Below the pieces are notes generated by a model, which saw only the letters and a program-made list of their open reading frames with translations, made no database searches and had not been told where the DNA came from. The position numbers were made by a program, and so were the translations under genes. Below are positions 27,627 through 35,327 of a DNA stretch of 64,000 nucleotides, in pieces (position 1 is the stretch's first letter; each line of letters opens with the position of its first letter). The stretch comes from Nautilia sp. PV-1 (GTDB lineage: Bacteria > Campylobacterota > Campylobacteria > Campylobacterales > Nautiliaceae), in contig NZ_CP026530.1 of NCBI RefSeq assembly GCF_004006315.1, positions 253,618-317,617 on the forward strand, given 5' to 3'.

Positions 27627-27770
27627 ATGGAAAATAAAGAGTTAAATACTGAAAACAACAATCAGGAAGAAAAACCATTTAATTTCGGTAAATTTATATT
27701 AGGTATATTTTTAGGTCTTTTGATTTTAACGAGTATTATTATTCTTGTGCCTTACTTTTTAATGAAGTGA
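27627..27770 (+). CDS. 47-residue single-pass membrane protein
   Basis: ATG at 27627 after ACGGAGAATTGAAA, stop TGA at 27768-27770. A polar N-terminus (ENKELNTENNNQEEKP) is followed by one long membrane segment (FILGIFLGLLILTSIIILVP) and a short tail. It follows the 27334 gene by 17 bases and overlaps the 3' end of the convergent histidine kinase gene by 32 bases. Supported by ribosome binding site, composition and operon position only. Confidence 0.6.
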   Translation: MENKELNTENNNQEEKPFNFGKFILGIFLGLLILTSIIILVPYFLMK

Positions 27771-28521
27771 TATCAAAATAAAATCTGCTTCCTTTTCCTT
27801 TTTGGCTCTCAATCTGAAGTTTGGTTTTGTGAATTTTGAGTATTTTTTCAACAATTGCCAGTCCTAATCCCAAAGAGTTGTCCCAGTCGTTTTTTGCTAT
27901 ACGGTAGAATTTTTGTTTAATGAGTTCTATTTCTTTTTCGTCTATACCTTTGCCTTTGTCTATAACTTCCAAATAAGTATCTGTAATATTCAGTGTTATT
28001 TTATCGTCAGAATATTTTATTGCATTTGAAAGCAGATTGTATATTACCGTTTCTATCAGGGTTTTATCACCGTAAACAGGTGTTTTTTGACAGTTTAGTT
28101 CAATTCTGTCGGTATTAAAACTTTCAATTATGTTTTTTGTGGCTGCACACAGATCGAATTTGGTAAATTTAATTTTTACTTTTTCGTTTTCTAGTCTTGT
28201 AATAAGATAAAGTCTGTCGATAAGTTCGCTGAGTCTAAGGGAGTTTCTCTGTATTTTGTTTAAAAACTTTCTGTTCATTTCATCCGGCAGTTCGTTGGTA
28301 AGTATCGTTTCAATATAGCCGTTTATAATGGATATAGGATTTTTGAATTCATGTGAAACGGCGGAAATTAGTTCGTCTTTTGAAGAGTTTAAAATATGAA
28401 GCTTTTTATTTTCTTTTTTGAGCTTTCTGTTTTCTTCTTTTAGTTTTTCAATCTCTTTTAACTCTTGTGAAAAAAAGATTTTTTTTAAAATATTCTTAAC
28501 TCTCAATTCCCAGTTCTCCAT
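27739..28521 (-). CDS. Soluble sensor histidine kinase of the phosphate module (PhoR/PhosS-like)
   Basis: 260 residues with no membrane segment. Residues 18-45 form a coiled coil, then the H-box with phosphoacceptor His57 (LISAVSHEFKNPISI), N-box LLSNAIKYSDD, G1 DKGKGID and G2 GLGLAIVEKIL. The place next to a PhoB-type regulator, phoU and pstSCAB argues for phosphate control. With no sensor domain, input is probably by contact with PhoU or the Pst transporter, as in the E. coli PhoR-PhoU-Pst model (inference). Last gene of the phoU-regulator-kinase unit. Confidence 0.85.
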   Translation of the reverse strand: MENWELRVKNILKKIFFSQELKEIEKLKEENRKLKKENKKLHILNSSKDELISAVSHEFKNPISIINGYIETILTNELPDEMNRKFLNKIQRNSLRLSELIDRLYLITRLENEKVKIKFTKFDLCAATKNIIESFNTDRIELNCQKTPVYGDKTLIETVIYNLLSNAIKYSDDKITLNITDTYLEVIDKGKGIDEKEIELIKQKFYRIAKNDWDNSLGLGLAIVEKILKIHKTKLQIESQKGKGSRFYFDITSLKSKAQE

Positions 28522-28550: not shown

Positions 28551-29189
28551 TCACTTTAATTTGTATCCCACGCCTCTGACGCTTTGTATAATACCGTTAA
28601 TTTTGTGGTTAAGCCTGTTTATGGCGACATTAACGCTTTTTTCATTGCTTATATCCAAAACTTCCATAATTTCTTCCCGGCTGAGTGTTCTTTTTTGATT
28701 TTTGAAAAATAGTTCTAATAGTCTGAATTCGGAAGGGGTCAGTGTTATATTTACGCTGTCGTGTGAGAGTGTTCTGTTTTGCAAATCGAGATGATAGTCT
28801 TTATACGAAATAACTTTAGCCGTAATATTGTGTCTTTTAAGCACCGCTTTGATTCTGGCAAGAAGTTCTTTCATATTAAACGGTTTGGTTATATAATCGT
28901 CGGCGCCTCTTTCAAAACCTTCAATAATGTCGTCTTCATCCGCTTTGGCGGTTAGAAATATTACAGGTATGTCGTAGCCTTCCTGTTTCAGCTCTTTTAC
29001 AAACATGCTGCCTTCAACACCCGGAAGGTTTCTGTCTACTATAAGCAGGTCGGGATTTTCTTCTATTATGAAGTCTTTTACTTTTTTGGTATTGGTAAAG
29101 CCCACGGCGTCGTAGCCGTTTTGCTGAAGAGTAAATTCAAGGAGTTCTAAAAGATCCTCCTCGTCTTCAATAATCGCGATTGTTATCAT
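28551..29189 (-). CDS. OmpR/PhoB-family response regulator
   Basis: 212 residues. Receiver with acidic pocket Glu8-Asp9, phosphoacceptor Asp52 (LLIVDRNLPG), LTAKADE and KPF, then a winged helix (LTPSEFRLLELFFKN, LSREEIMEVLD, VNVAINRLNHKI, VRGVGYKLK). Likely binds the TGTTAY direct repeats at 29817-29864. Twenty bases after phoU and followed by the kinase after about 30 bases. Confidence 0.88.
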   Translation of the reverse strand: MITIAIIEDEEDLLELLEFTLQQNGYDAVGFTNTKKVKDFIIEENPDLLIVDRNLPGVEGSMFVKELKQEGYDIPVIFLTAKADEDDIIEGFERGADDYITKPFNMKELLARIKAVLKRHNITAKVISYKDYHLDLQNRTLSHDSVNITLTPSEFRLLELFFKNQKRTLSREEIMEVLDISNEKSVNVAINRLNHKINGIIQSVRGVGYKLK

Positions 29190-29209: not shown

Positions 29210-29770
29210 TTACAGTTCAAGTCCCTCTTTTGCAAAGAGCAGGTATGATGCGATTGTTTTTGCGCTGTCGCTGATTCTTTCAAGTTTTTTTGCTATGTTT
29301 AAAATTTTCAGGATTTCATCTACGTTTTCTTTCTGTTTTACTTCAAGCACAAGGTCTTTGTATATCTCATCAGCGATTTTTTCGTAACTTATAATAGTTG
29401 AATATGCGTCTTCTATGGTGTCGCCTTTTACGGCAAGTTTAAGCGTATCGATGGTTGAAAGGGCGTTTTGGTATAAAGCGTCGATTTTTTCGTCTTCGAA
29501 ATCGTATTTTTTAATAAACGATTTTGTTGATTTTTTTATTTTTGCTAAAAAAGAGCTTATTTTAAGATACGCCACCACTTCTCTTAAATATTCTCCCTGC
29601 GGATGAAAAAGTGCAAGAAATTTAATTACTTCGTTGTCAAATTCTTTTAAATCAATAAGAAAAAACTCTTCAGTAAATTCTTTTTTTTGAAGTGATTCTT
29701 CAATAGCCGTAATATAATTTACAAATTTATTGTTAATCTGCTGGAGTGACTGCTCAAAAGTACTAAGCAT
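29210..29770 (-). CDS. phoU: PhoU-family phosphate regulator
   Basis: 186 residues, all helical, single-copy PhoU repeat plus partner helices. The C-terminal signature NIAKKLERISDSAKTIASYL corresponds to the family's ARxLERIADHxxNI, which binds metal and contacts PstB and the kinase. Divergent from pstS; here phoU precedes its regulator and kinase instead of ending pstSCAB as in E. coli. Minus-strand TATAAT at 29791-29796. Confidence 0.87.
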   Translation of the reverse strand: MLSTFEQSLQQINNKFVNYITAIEESLQKKEFTEEFFLIDLKEFDNEVIKFLALFHPQGEYLREVVAYLKISSFLAKIKKSTKSFIKKYDFEDEKIDALYQNALSTIDTLKLAVKGDTIEDAYSTIISYEKIADEIYKDLVLEVKQKENVDEILKILNIAKKLERISDSAKTIASYLLFAKEGLEL

Positions 29771-29790
29771 TTGAATCCTTTTTTTGTGTT

Positions 29791-29796
29791 ATTATA
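29791..29796 (-). promoter_or_regulatory. -10 box of the phoU-regulator-kinase operon
   Basis: TATAAT on the minus strand, 20 bases before the phoU ATG. A fifth TGTTAT (29787-29792) overlaps it. Confidence 0.5.
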
Positions 29797-29816: not shown

Positions 29817-29864
29817 TGTTATCGTTGTGTTATTCAAAACTCTATTTTGTTACCAAAATGTTAT
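29817..29864 (+). promoter_or_regulatory. Two Pho-box-like direct-repeat pairs before pstS
   Basis: TGTTAT at 29817 and 29828, then TGTTAC at 29848 and TGTTAT at 29859. Each pair has an 11-base period, as in the E. coli Pho box; the pairs are 31 bases apart. The last repeat ends exactly 10 bases before the TACAAT box at 29875, the arrangement in which PhoB replaces -35 recognition. Confidence 0.65.
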
Positions 29865-29874
29865 TTTGTTTTTT

Positions 29875-29880
29875 TACAAT
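29875..29880 (+). promoter_or_regulatory. -10 box of pstS
   Basis: TACAAT, 25 bases before the pstS ATG, no -35 consensus but Pho-box-like repeats in its place. Confidence 0.55.
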
Positions 29881-29905
29881 TTTGAAAATCAAAAAAGGAG
29901 AACGA

Positions 29906-30907
29906 ATGAAAAAATTAGTATTAGGTGCGTTAATCGCAGCAAGTTCATTTGCATATACTATAAACGGAACAGGTGCAAGTTTTCCATATCCTGTATATAA
30001 ACAGTGGATTAAAAGTTATTATGATAAAACCGGCAACAGAGTAAACTATACCGCAACGGGAAGCGGAACGGGAATTAAAGAAGTTGCTTACAGACACGTA
30101 AATTTCGGAGGAAGCGACAAACCTTTGACTCCCAACATTTTAAGAAAAGCGAGACTTTATCAATTTCCTACAGTAGTCGGAGGTATTGTTTTCGGTTATA
30201 ACGTACCCGGTATAAACAAACTTAAATTAAGTGAAGCGGCAATTAAAGGCATAGTTCTTGGCACTATTAAATACTGGGACAATCCTTTAATAGTAAAATA
30301 TAATCCTGGAGAAAAATTTCCTCACAAAAAAATTATTTTCGTTCACAGAAGCGACAAATCGGGAACTACTTTTAACTTTACATATTATTTAAGCAAAATG
30401 TGCAATACATGGAGAACGCATTTCGGTGCAAGAAAACTTATCAACTGGCCTACAGACGCACAGGGCAGAGGTATCGCTGGTAAAGGAAACTTCGGTGTCA
30501 GCGCTGCTATTAAAACAAACAAATACTCTATCGGATATGTTGATTATGCGGATGCTAAGAAAAACGGTCTTAAAATGGCTATCGTTCAGGCGGCTGACGG
30601 AAAATTCGTAGCGCCTACCCCTGCAAACTTTGCCGAGGGTGCAAAATATGCGGGATTTGATCCTAAAAAAGATTTTTATAAAATAATCGCTTATCCGAGA
30701 AAAGGTTATCCGATTATCGCGTCTACATTTATTTTGATACCTCAGGAAAAAGTAAATACAGATAAAGAAGTGACAGCGTTTTTCAATTACGCATATAAAC
30801 ACGGAGACGCCGCTGCAAGCAGACTGGGATATATCCCTCTGCCTCAGAGCGTTAAAGACCAGATTATGAAATACTGGGCCGAAAAAGGTATTTCTCCTGC
30901 AAAATAA
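29906..30907 (+). CDS. pstS: Periplasmic phosphate-binding protein
   Basis: 333 residues from ATG 29906 (after AAAAAAGGAGAACG); the frame is open further upstream but that part covers the promoter. Signal peptide MKKLVLGALIAASSFA. Phosphate-binding segments GTGASFPYPVYKQW, TGSGTGIKE, NFGGSDKPL and HRSDKSGTTFNFTYYL are present. Delivers phosphate to PstCA. Followed by a terminator-like hairpin before pstC. Confidence 0.96.
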   Translation: MKKLVLGALIAASSFAYTINGTGASFPYPVYKQWIKSYYDKTGNRVNYTATGSGTGIKEVAYRHVNFGGSDKPLTPNILRKARLYQFPTVVGGIVFGYNVPGINKLKLSEAAIKGIVLGTIKYWDNPLIVKYNPGEKFPHKKIIFVHRSDKSGTTFNFTYYLSKMCNTWRTHFGARKLINWPTDAQGRGIAGKGNFGVSAAIKTNKYSIGYVDYADAKKNGLKMAIVQAADGKFVAPTPANFAEGAKYAGFDPKKDFYKIIAYPRKGYPIIASTFILIPQEKVNTDKEVTAFFNYAYKHGDAAASRLGYIPLPQSVKDQIMKYWAEKGISPAK

Positions 30908-30965: not shown

Positions 30966-32027
30966 ATGGAAGCTCTTTTTAGAAAGTTATCCTCTCTCAG
31001 TGCTACGATTATCTTAATATTGCTTTCTGCTATATTTGTTGTGTTATTTATGTATGCAAAACCTGCTATTAAAGAATACGGACTGCATTTTATTATTGAT
31101 CCGAGATGGGACGTAACCGTTCAGCTTCCGGCTAAAAACAAACCGGCAGACAATGCCTCGGCTCAGAGCGTTCAAAATAATACAACAAATAGTACAGCCT
31201 CAAACGCTGCAATTCCTCAGGACAGCGACGATATAGGAAATATTCCGACAGACAGCGATGATATAGGAAACATTCCTCAGGATAATGACAATATTGCAAT
31301 TCCGGAAGATAATGATCTGGGAGGAATGGGCTCTTCAAATACGAAAACAATTTACGGCGGGCTTATTCCGATAGTCGGAACTATTCTTTCCACTGTGCTT
31401 GCGATGGTTTTTGCTGTTCCTATCGCAATGGGGATTTCAATATTTTTAGCCGAAATTGCACCGCCTTTTATATCAAAACCGGTCGGTATCGCAATAGAGC
31501 TGCTTGCCGCGATTCCGAGTATTATTTACGGTATGTGGGGACTTTTTTATTTCGGTCCGTTAATAGCGGACATATTCGGAGGACAGAGTGTTTCGTTGCT
31601 GGTAGCCGGAATGGTGCTGGCCGTTATGATTATTCCTTTTATGGCGTCTCTAACCAGAGACAGTATGAATACTACTCCAAATGTTCTTAAAGAATCCGCA
31701 TATGCAATGGGGGCGACTAAATTTGAAGTAATTAAAGACGTTATTTTCCCTTATGCGAAAAAGGGAATAATCGGAAGTATCATTTTGGCGCTGGGAAGAG
31801 CTTTGGGTGAGACAATGGCTGTTGCTTTCGTAATCGGAGGGGTTTTCAGTTTCCCTCACAAACTGACTGATCCTACCGTTTCGATTCCGGTAGTTCTAGC
31901 CAACAACTTTGCGGAAAGCAGCGGAATGAGTTTAAGCGCTCTGTTTTATCTGGCGCTGATACTGTTTATTATTTCATTCGCTGTTATTTCATTTGCGAAG
32001 TTCTATTTTTTAAGGGATAAAAAATGA
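30966..32027 (+). CDS. pstC: Phosphate ABC transporter permease PstC with repeat insert
   Basis: 353 residues. First membrane segment about 15-32. The permease core starts near 130 (IYGGLIPIVGTILSTVLA) and includes EAYAMGATKFEVIKDV-type coupling and ALGRALGETMAV. Between them is a ~75-residue periplasmic loop with a tandem 10-residue repeat, IPQDSDDIGN, IPTDSDDIGN, IPQDNDNIA, IPEDNDLGG (residues 83-119; DNA 31212-31322). The repeat is not part of the family core. ATG start; overlaps pstA by 4 bases. Confidence 0.95.
   Translation: MEALFRKLSSLSATIILILLSAIFVVLFMYAKPAIKEYGLHFIIDPRWDVTVQLPAKNKPADNASAQSVQNNTTNSTASNAAIPQDSDDIGNIPTDSDDIGNIPQDNDNIAIPEDNDLGGMGSSNTKTIYGGLIPIVGTILSTVLAMVFAVPIAMGISIFLAEIAPPFISKPVGIAIELLAAIPSIIYGMWGLFYFGPLIADIFGGQSVSLLVAGMVLAVMIIPFMASLTRDSMNTTPNVLKESAYAMGATKFEVIKDVIFPYAKKGIIGSIILALGRALGETMAVAFVIGGVFSFPHKLTDPTVSIPVVLANNFAESSGMSLSALFYLALILFIISFAVISFAKFYFLRDKK
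31212..31322 (+). repeat. Tandem 30-base coding repeat in pstC
   Basis: Units at 31212-31241, 31242-31271, 31272-31298 and 31299-31322, all in frame, each starting ATTCC. Units 1 and 2 are nearly identical; units 3 and 4 are shorter and more diverged. Acidic, Pro-spaced loop. Confidence 0.8.
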
Positions 32028-32830
32028 GACTTATAATAAATAAAATTGTTTTGCTTCTTTCTACGTTAAGTGCGTTAATAGGGCTCGGATTTCTGTTTTG
32101 GATACTGATAACTCTGACTATAAAAGGCATTGGTGCTATAGATCTTCACATATTTACGCACGATTTGGTAAACAACGGTCTTAGAAACCTGCTTGTAGGG
32201 CAGTTTATACTTGCTCTGATAGCTGTGATTATCGGTGTTCCTATAGGAATGGTGGCCGGTATATATCTTCAGGAATATTCGTTCGGAAACAAATACGCGC
32301 AGTTTATAAGAAACCTGAGCGACGTTATGATGTCGGCTCCGTCAATCGTAATAGGTACTTTCGTTTATGCTGTTGTAGTCAACCCTGTAGGACATCAAAG
32401 CGGATGGGCGGGAGCCATTGCGCTTGCCATTATGATGATTCCGATAGTCGTAAGAACTACGGACGATATGCTGGGACTCGTTCCGAAAGAGCTAAGAGAA
32501 GCCGGAGTCGCGATTGGCGCTCCTAAATATAAAGTGATTTTAAATATAATTATAAAAGCTGCAAAAGTGGGTATAATGACGGGAATTCTGCTGGCTTTCG
32601 CTAGAATAGTGGGAGAAACTGCTCCGCTGTTATTTACAAGCGGAAACAGCGAATATTTTACCGTTAACCTAAACCAGGTATTTCCTAGCTTAACTGTCGC
32701 CATTTATAACCTTGCTACAATGCCGGATGCGAATCTGGTAAGAATAGCATGGGCCGGAGCGTTTATATTAACGCTTTTCGTTTTGATTATAAACCTTCTC
32801 GGAAGATATTTAATAAAAGATAAAAAATAA
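32024..32830 (+). CDS. pstA: Phosphate ABC transporter permease PstA
   Basis: 268 residues, six membrane segments. Landmarks: GLRNLLVGQFILALIAVI, GIYLQEYS, MMSAPSIVIG and the cytoplasmic coupling loop EAGVAIGAPKYKVIL, then ARIVGETAPLLFT. Forms the phosphate channel with PstC. ATG overlaps the pstC stop (ATGA). Confidence 0.96.
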   Translation: MRLIINKIVLLLSTLSALIGLGFLFWILITLTIKGIGAIDLHIFTHDLVNNGLRNLLVGQFILALIAVIIGVPIGMVAGIYLQEYSFGNKYAQFIRNLSDVMMSAPSIVIGTFVYAVVVNPVGHQSGWAGAIALAIMMIPIVVRTTDDMLGLVPKELREAGVAIGAPKYKVILNIIIKAAKVGIMTGILLAFARIVGETAPLLFTSGNSEYFTVNLNQVFPSLTVAIYNLATMPDANLVRIAWAGAFILTLFVLIINLLGRYLIKDKK

Positions 32831-32839
32831 AGGTTTGAT

Positions 32840-33622
32840 ATGAAAGTAATGGATATTAAAAATTTCAGTTTTACATATGCGGGTGCTCCAAAACCTTCTT
32901 TAAACAATATAAACTTGCCTATTTACGAAGGTAAAGTTACGGCATTAATAGGGCCTAGCGGATGCGGAAAATCAACGCTTTTAAGAAGTTTAAACAGAAT
33001 ACACGACCTGTATCCGGGAAATAAGTATGAAGGGGAAATCCTTCTCAAAAATTTTGATACGGGAGAGATGGAAAATATTCTTGAATTTAAAAAAGAAAAC
33101 GAACTTATTAATCTCCGTCAGAGAGTAGGAATGATATTTCAAAAACCGACACCGTTTCCAATGAGTATATACGACAATATCGCATACGGACTTAGACTAA
33201 AAGGTATAAAAAGCAAAAGCGAACTTGACGGCAGGGTCGAAGATGCACTTAAAGGCGGAGCGCTGTGGAACGAAGTTAAAGACAGGCTTAAAGACGATGC
33301 AAGGGGTCTCAGCGGCGGTCAGCAGCAAAGACTGTGCATAGCAAGGGCCATTGCGGTAGAGCCGGAAGTGCTTTTAATGGACGAACCTACAAGTGCGCTT
33401 GACCCTATTTCAACTTTAGCGATTGAAGAGCTTGTAACCCAGCTGAAAGATAAAGTCACTATAGCAATAGTTACGCACAATATGCAGCAGGCAAGCCGTG
33501 TGAGCGACTATACGGCTTATATGTATTTAGGAGAGCTTATAGAATTCGGTGAAACAACTCAGATATTCCTTAATCCAAAAGAAAAACACACTGCAGATTA
33601 TATTGCGGGTAAATTCGGCTAA
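32840..33622 (+). CDS. pstB: Phosphate ABC transporter ATP-binding protein PstB
   Basis: 260 residues. Walker [11 protein letters not shown]-loop [18 protein letters not shown], signature [14 protein letters not shown], Walker [14 protein letters not shown], switch His in VTHNMQQA. The [10 protein letters not shown] segment is characteristic of PstB. Energises PstCA and, in other bacteria, signals phosphate status to PhoU. Last pst gene. Confidence 0.97.
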
Positions 33623-33707: not shown

Positions 33708-35327
33708 ATGGAGCTGCAAACTGTCTCTAAAATTGAAAAAAAAGCAAGAAAATCCGCCGGTATAGATTTAATGCGCCTTGGTATTGCGCTTATTTTTATT
33801 GCCGTTGTGGTTATTTATACATATGCAAAAACAGGAAGCGTGCCAAACAGTCTGTTTTTGGTGATAGCTACGGTTTTCGGTGCTTATATGGCTATGAACA
33901 TAGGTGCGAACGACGTTGCTAACAATGTAGGTCCGGCAGTCGGAAGCAGGGCTTTGAGTCTTGCGGGCGCTATCGTTATTGCCGCTATTTTCGAAGCTGC
34001 CGGGGCTTTGATTGCCGGTGCCGATGTTACGAACACCATCAGAAAAGGTATTATTGATTTAGGTGCTTTTCACGGAGATGTTAATGTGTTTATATGGGCG
34101 ATGATGTCGGCTTTGCTGGCGGCTGCTCTCTGGCTTAATCTTGCTACTGCGTTTAAAGCGCCCGTTTCTACGACACACTCTATCGTAGGCGGTGTAATGG
34201 GAGCCGGAATAGCAGCTGCGGGATTTGGCATCGTTCACTGGGCTACAATGGGGAAAATTGCAGCTTCATGGGTTATATCTCCCGTTCTTGGAGGTATTAT
34301 AGCCGCAGGATTTTTATATGCCATTAAAAAAACGGTCGTTTTTAAAGAAGATATGGCTTCAGCCGCGAAAAAATGGGTTCCGATATATGTATCAATTATG
34401 ACGTGGGCTTTTGTAACATATCTGACAATGAAAGGTTTAAAGCACGTATGGGTTAATATTACGGATGTTTTAAGCTTTTTGCCTCATACTAAAAAACCTA
34501 CATTCGGTGTTGCTGCCGTTTTCGGTCTGATTGCCGGTATTATCGTATATTTTGTAATGGCGGTTAAATTAAAAAAAGAAGCTATTTTAAATACCAGGGA
34601 AGGAATAAACAGATATTTTACCGTTCCTCTTATTTTTTCAGCAGCACTTCTTAGTTTTGCTCACGGTGCAAATGACGTTGCGAATGCGGTAGGTCCTCTG
34701 GCGGCTATCAGCGATGCCGTTTTAAACGGAGGAATCGCAAGCAAATCGGCGATACCTTTCTGGGTTATGGCTATCGGTGCACTGGGTATTTCTATAGGTC
34801 TTGCACTTTACGGTCCTAGACTGATTAAAACGGTTGGCGACGAAATCACAAAAATAGACCCGATAAGAGGTTTCTGTGTGGCTTTAGCAGCGGCTATTAC
34901 CGTTATTGTGGCATCTCAGCTGGGACTTCCGGTAAGTTCTACACATATTGCGGTAGGAGCTATATTCGGAGTAGGGTTTTTAAGAGAATGGCTTCACCTG
35001 ATTGAACAGAAAGAAGAAGAAATAGTAAAAGAAATAGATGACGCGGAAAAAAAATTAAAAGCATACGAGCTTGAACTTGAAGACCTGCAGCAAAGAACCG
35101 ACAAAACTAAAGAAGATTATAAGAAAATAGTCGAACTTATAGAAATGATTGAAGATTTGGAAAAAACAGTTAAAAGATTCAAAAAAATTCTTAAAAAAGA
35201 AGAAAAAGTAAAATATGTCAAAAGGGATCTGTTTAATAAAATTATTTTGGCCTGGGTTATTACAGTTCCTGTAGCAGCGGTGCTTGCGGCAATGATTTTC
35301 TTTATGATTAAAGGAATGATGCTGTAA
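33708..35327 (+). CDS. Pit-family inorganic phosphate transporter
   Basis: 539 residues. Two inverted halves carry the family signatures GANDVANNVGPAVGS (after about residue 65) and SFAHGANDVANAVGPLAAI, each followed by SxTH-type motifs (APVSTTHSIVGG, LPVSSTHIAVGA). A charged coiled coil of about 80 residues (roughly 425-505) lies between the last two membrane segments, on one face of the membrane. Low-affinity, ion-coupled phosphate uptake next to the high-affinity Pst system. Own -10 (TAAAAT) upstream. Confidence 0.93.
   Translation: MELQTVSKIEKKARKSAGIDLMRLGIALIFIAVVVIYTYAKTGSVPNSLFLVIATVFGAYMAMNIGANDVANNVGPAVGSRALSLAGAIVIAAIFEAAGALIAGADVTNTIRKGIIDLGAFHGDVNVFIWAMMSALLAAALWLNLATAFKAPVSTTHSIVGGVMGAGIAAAGFGIVHWATMGKIAASWVISPVLGGIIAAGFLYAIKKTVVFKEDMASAAKKWVPIYVSIMTWAFVTYLTMKGLKHVWVNITDVLSFLPHTKKPTFGVAAVFGLIAGIIVYFVMAVKLKKEAILNTREGINRYFTVPLIFSAALLSFAHGANDVANAVGPLAAISDAVLNGGIASKSAIPFWVMAIGALGISIGLALYGPRLIKTVGDEITKIDPIRGFCVALAAAITVIVASQLGLPVSSTHIAVGAIFGVGFLREWLHLIEQKEEEIVKEIDDAEKKLKAYELELEDLQQRTDKTKEDYKKIVELIEMIEDLEKTVKRFKKILKKEEKVKYVKRDLFNKIILAWVITVPVAAVLAAMIFFMIKGMML

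Follow-up and report, generated by a model that had tools for sequence, protein, structure and literature searches.

The window, by which we mean the whole stretch of 64,000 nucleotides that was analysed, contains two divergent operons for phosphate uptake and its control. On the plus strand lie the genes for the phosphate-binding protein PstS (29906..30907), the permeases PstC (30966..32027) and PstA (32024..32830) and the ATPase PstB (32840..33622), which score above the cut-offs of TIGR00975, TIGR02138, TIGR00974 and TIGR00972, respectively. A PHO4/Pit-type phosphate transporter gene (33708..35327, plus strand, PF01384) starts 85 bp after pstB and is probably part of the same transcript. 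The same gene order is found in four of the eight relatives with pstB, and high- and low-affinity uptake may therefore share one promoter.

On the minus strand, a phoU-like gene (29210..29770; PF01895, below the TIGR02135 cut-off) is accompanied by the genes for a response regulator (28551..29189) and a histidine kinase (27739..28521). The regulator combines a receiver and a winged-helix Trans_reg_C domain, with PF00072 and PF00486 both above cut-off, and is thus a member of the OmpR/PhoB family; the PhoB equivalog TIGR02154 is its best-scoring NCBIfam model, at 172.3 bits compared to a cut-off of 296.2. The kinase has a PhoR-like catalytic part (PF00512 and PF02518; best NCBIfam model TIGR02966, below cut-off) and starts with a likely coiled coil. 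It shows neither a membrane segment (highest 19-residue hydropathy 0.77) nor a PAS match, and so differs from PhoR, in which membrane segments and a PAS domain precede the kinase core.

The gap between phoU and pstS contains four TGTTAY repeats, all on the plus strand, which begin at 29817 (TGTTAT), 29828 (TGTTAT), 29848 (TGTTAC) and 29859 (TGTTAT). They form two pairs of direct repeats with an 11-nt period, a distal pair (TGTTATCGTTGTGTTAT, 29817..29833), which we describe as an upstream auxiliary Pho box, and a proximal Pho box (TGTTACCAAAATGTTAT, 29848..29864). Exactly 10 bases separate the end of the last repeat at 29864 from the pstS -10 box TACAAT (29875..29880, plus strand), followed at a distance of 7 bp by an A at 29887, the likely transcription start as judged from the alignment described below, and by the ribosome-binding site AAGGAG (29895..29900). 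The pstS promoter has no -35 hexamer, its -35 slot reading ACCAAA, and the proximal box occupies the -35 place. On the opposite strand, the phoU operon has the -10 box TATAAT (29791..29796; ATTATA on the plus strand). The repeats here read TGTTAY and not CTGTCAT as in E. coli; since the spelling of Pho boxes differs from species to species (PMC4415409), this only bars assignment to the E. coli type.

To gauge conservation, we used a sample of 21 Nautiliaceae genomes, 17 of which have a readable pstS upstream region. The arrangement TGTTAY-N5-TGTTAY-N10-TANNNT precedes pstS in 16 of these 17, with one of the 16 spelling the first repeat TGTTAG, while dinucleotide-preserving shuffles yielded none; the N10 spacing is the same in all 16. 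A first alignment (A1) of sites selected by regular expression, whose invariance was partly due to its construction, was superseded by aligning all 16 upstream regions with MAFFT, without the motif as an anchor. Beyond the start region, this unanchored alignment contains three invariant blocks, the phoU -10 box, the proximal box and the pstS -10 box, with invariant TGTTA at 29848-29852, TGTTAT at 29859-29864, TA.AAT at 29875-29880 and A at 29887. The regulator is likewise present in all 16 box-bearing genomes (E <= 1e-40), and at this threshold it was not found in G020, a genome with pstS and phoU and no box, whose assembly is 83% complete.

In our view, the site is very probably a Pho box-promoter of pstSCAB(-pit) that is bound by the adjacent PhoB-like regulator under phosphate scarcity, where binding, activation and the phosphate signal are what we infer. 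The first-pass annotation had proposed a Pho-box-like operator between pst and phoU with its regulator gene close by. The regulator gene does lie about 0.7-1.3 kb from the box, and the operator itself is supported by its geometry, by its conservation upstream of pstS in relatives, by its co-occurrence with the regulator and by the further candidate targets described below.

The distal pair is confined to the genome analysed here (G000) and G018, the two Nautilia genomes that have a pst locus. Repeat offsets are 0, 11, 31 and 42 in the former and 0, 11, 21 and 32 in the latter, placing the distal pair 31 bp and 21 bp, respectively, from the proximal pair, a difference of one helical turn. In Nautilia, the distal pair, on roughly the same helix face as the proximal one, would take up another dimer and probably strengthen binding. 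It is also conceivable, albeit on the unlikely side, that the distal pair, rather than helping pstS, chiefly serves to repress the divergent operon of phoU, regulator and kinase, providing negative autoregulation. The pair covers the likely -35 slot of this operon and begins at a near-constant 20 bp (G000) or 21 bp (G018) from the phoU -10 box, whereas the spacing between the two pairs shifts by 10 bp. However, this pattern comes from two genomes, a shift of one helical turn also suits cooperation at pstS, and both roles could coexist. Repression at phoU would concern the distal pair alone and is compatible with our reading of the proximal pair as the pstS Pho box.

The first-pass annotation had also hinted at autoregulation or repression. 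Autoregulation in the positive sense is unsupported, because a box oriented toward phoU was found in none of the genomes examined. The annotation had further singled out a fifth TGTTAT (29787..29792, plus strand). It does overlap the phoU -10 box by two bases, but it has no special status, as positions 29787-29790 are not conserved; we consider it coincidental and rejected it as an operator, given that it is unconserved outside the two bases shared with the -10 box.

To place the TGTTAY spelling in a wider context, we turned to the class, in which pstS was detected in 88 of 298 genomes, and read 40 pstS upstream regions from outside the family. A TGT[ACT][AT]Y pair located 10-11 bp before a -10-like hexamer is found in 31 of these 40 genomes, compared to a shuffle mean of 0.04. 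The commonest spelling is TGTAAY, with TGTTTC in one locus of family f3 (L153) and mixed forms elsewhere. As these 31 genomes share the geometry, mostly with TGTAAY, we regard TGTTAY as the way in which this lineage spells a Pho box that extends over the class, and the initial proposal of an E. coli PhoB geometry in lineage-specific spelling is thereby confirmed over the class.

The regulator was compared by alignment with E. coli PhoB. It retains Arg201, Val197 and Arg219 of PhoB and has Ser in place of Thr194. These PhoB residues are reported to touch guanine, thymines and bases between the half-sites (PMC3973317). Asp196 is replaced by Asn and His198 by Ala in nearly all Campylobacterota compared, and the Nautiliaceae regulators in addition have Asn in place of Arg203 and lack about six residues between recognition helix and wing. 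Such a pattern agrees with a TGT core that stays fixed and a fourth base that drifts, and the two may be causally linked.

Further candidate targets were sought with R1, a sequence-only model built from the family sites. In the genome analysed here, R1 ranks the proximal box first, with an E-value of 1.2e-6, and apart from this site returned no match below E 0.1. The first-pass annotation had suggested looking for hits upstream of phosphatase or phoX-like genes. Among the 21 family genomes, phoX is absent from the genome analysed here and occurs in G001 only (L200, G001:C1:136223 on), and there the second-ranked R1 site (E 0.0136), TAGTTATTAAATTGTTAC-N10-TATAAT, precedes this PhoX-family phosphatase gene (PF05787), so that the box stands before phosphate-acquisition genes both at pstS, in 16 genomes, and at phoX.

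Sites in G011, G013 and G014 led us to a gene for a hydrophobic protein of 22-26 residues, divergent from an ABC-F gene. The exact geometry precedes this gene in six genomes (G011, G013, G014, G015, G016 and G017), although the copy in G013 is cut by a contig end, the peptide in G015 is masked by N and the -10 match in G017 (TATCCT) is poor. In the genome analysed here, the corresponding promoter lies outside the window (L242, G000:C1 about 970300-970445) and is weaker, with TGATACCAAATTGTAAT-N10-TATACT before MKIDVMTAAAATLLIASLSLFQAV and one mismatch. In the G001 promoter, four units, of which two are degenerate, follow one another at a period of exactly 11 bp and stop 10 bp short of TATAAT; G002 has the small protein without a box, and G018 has neither. 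Taken together, the loci of this kind carrying Pho-box geometry (L240, L242, L244, L248, L249, L251, L253) are distributed over several genera, and two of the small-protein boxes are hybrids, TGTCAT/TGTAAT. Judged by these promoters, this conserved small membrane protein of 24-31 residues is a candidate new member of the Pho regulon. By analogy only with other small proteins, described as acting on phosphate signalling (PMC12501420), a plausible guess would be that it modulates Pst or the kinase from the membrane side.

The same genomes contain a second family of paired repeats, TGTCAY-N5-TGTCAY, with 19 matches in the 21 genomes compared to 2 for a reversed control, about ten times above that control (L258-L275, L213-L238 and L266, the last being the copy in the genome analysed here, G000:C1:1076910-1076926). 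Downstream of these pairs, genes of the same kinds turn up repeatedly (OmpA-like, pilin-like, MscS-like, PAS-domain and BioA-like, as named by reading their sequences), and the pairs probably belong to another OmpR-type regulator, one whose sites have the E. coli Pho spelling. Given the similar spacing of the two families, the different kinds of genes that TGTCAY pairs precede, and the hybrid small-protein boxes, one may ask whether the pstS box is also bound by such a regulator and is not a phosphate switch at all. We consider this highly improbable: the TGTTAY spelling before pstS does not vary among 16 genomes and goes together with the neighbouring regulator, the other sites that show the complete geometry lie in front of phoX and the small-protein gene, and TGTCAY pairs were not observed upstream of pstS.

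With somewhat less than even confidence, we suggest that Nautiliaceae possess two parallel regulons based on 11-bp direct repeats and differing mainly at base 4 of the repeat, one with TGT(T/A)AY for phosphate, including the 24-31-residue membrane protein, and one with TGTCAY for envelope and other genes under another regulator. If this were true, sites spelled as in the E. coli Pho box would in Nautiliaceae point to a regulon other than that for phosphate, and the small membrane protein would be a new output of the Pho regulon. Searching these genomes for Pho sites by their E. coli spelling would retrieve a different set of genes, which calls for caution.

As to how often the motif arises without function, TGTTAY-N5-TGTTAY has two matches in the window, compared to a shuffle mean of 0.04. 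The whole genome of 1.79 Mb has exactly two as well, both at the pst locus, with three for a reversed control pattern; the paired motif is thus not scattered over unrelated loci. When one mismatch was allowed, the paired motif showed no excess, and for this reason we put weight on exact copies and on conservation. Away from pst, TGTTAY pairs in relatives are mostly intragenic or extended -10 elements. TGTTAY repeats were also noted before genes that by eye resemble those for hydrogenase/complex I subunits, at L175 (G001:C1:1286740) and L019 (G019:C22:6957), the latter with three units at an 11-bp period; these could be due to chance. That the repeats at pstS themselves arose by chance in a sequence rich in A and T, or are extended -10 elements (TGTTATAAT) mimicking the motif, is scarcely credible: several of the non-pst matches in relatives do have the form TGTTATAAT and one-mismatch matches are common, but the exact geometry recurs in 16 of 17 genomes and never in shuffles, none of 100 shuffles of the window contains two pairs, and at this locus AAT does not follow TGTTAT.

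For the pstS Pho box we envisage the following mechanism. At low phosphate, the PhoU/Pst-linked kinase would phosphorylate the regulator, which would then bind in head-to-tail orientation to the direct repeats of 11 bp. Because the proximal pair stands 10 bp upstream of the -10 box, in place of a -35 element, the dimer bound there would contact sigma-70 and start pstS transcription near position 29887, as a class II activator of the PhoB type. For the deep-branching Campylobacterota of vents, this provides a regulatory site of phosphate uptake that is open to direct testing, with the motif pointing to a tiny membrane protein as a new candidate target. As TGTCAT, TGTAAC, TGTTAT and TGTTTC form a graded series of spellings on one fixed geometry, the co-evolution of regulator and site also becomes testable.

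In the open-licence literature, we found no Pho box described for Nautilia or the Epsilonproteobacteria. Among known systems, one to compare is that of E. coli, where the Pho box sits 10 bp before the -10 box. The Nautilia site resembles the PhoB box in its 11-bp direct repeats in the -35 place, its invariant TGT core and its vicinity to a PhoB-like regulator and pst. It differs at position 4 of TGTCAT, which is T here and C in E. coli, in its regulator, which stays below the equivalog cut-off and has the altered residues and shortened helix-wing stretch described above, and in a regulator operon that is not driven by any box. Within the same class, the PhosS/PhosR box of C. jejuni also consists of 11-bp repeats upstream of pstS, with a consensus that is reportedly GTTTC-N6-GTTTC. 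Compared to this consensus, the repeats here read GTTAY; the TGTTTC form of family f3 is one base further away. Further counterparts are the pstS Pho boxes of other Campylobacterota described here, which equal the Nautilia site in position, period and spacing to the -10 box, but mostly read TGTAAYC-N4-TGTAAYC.
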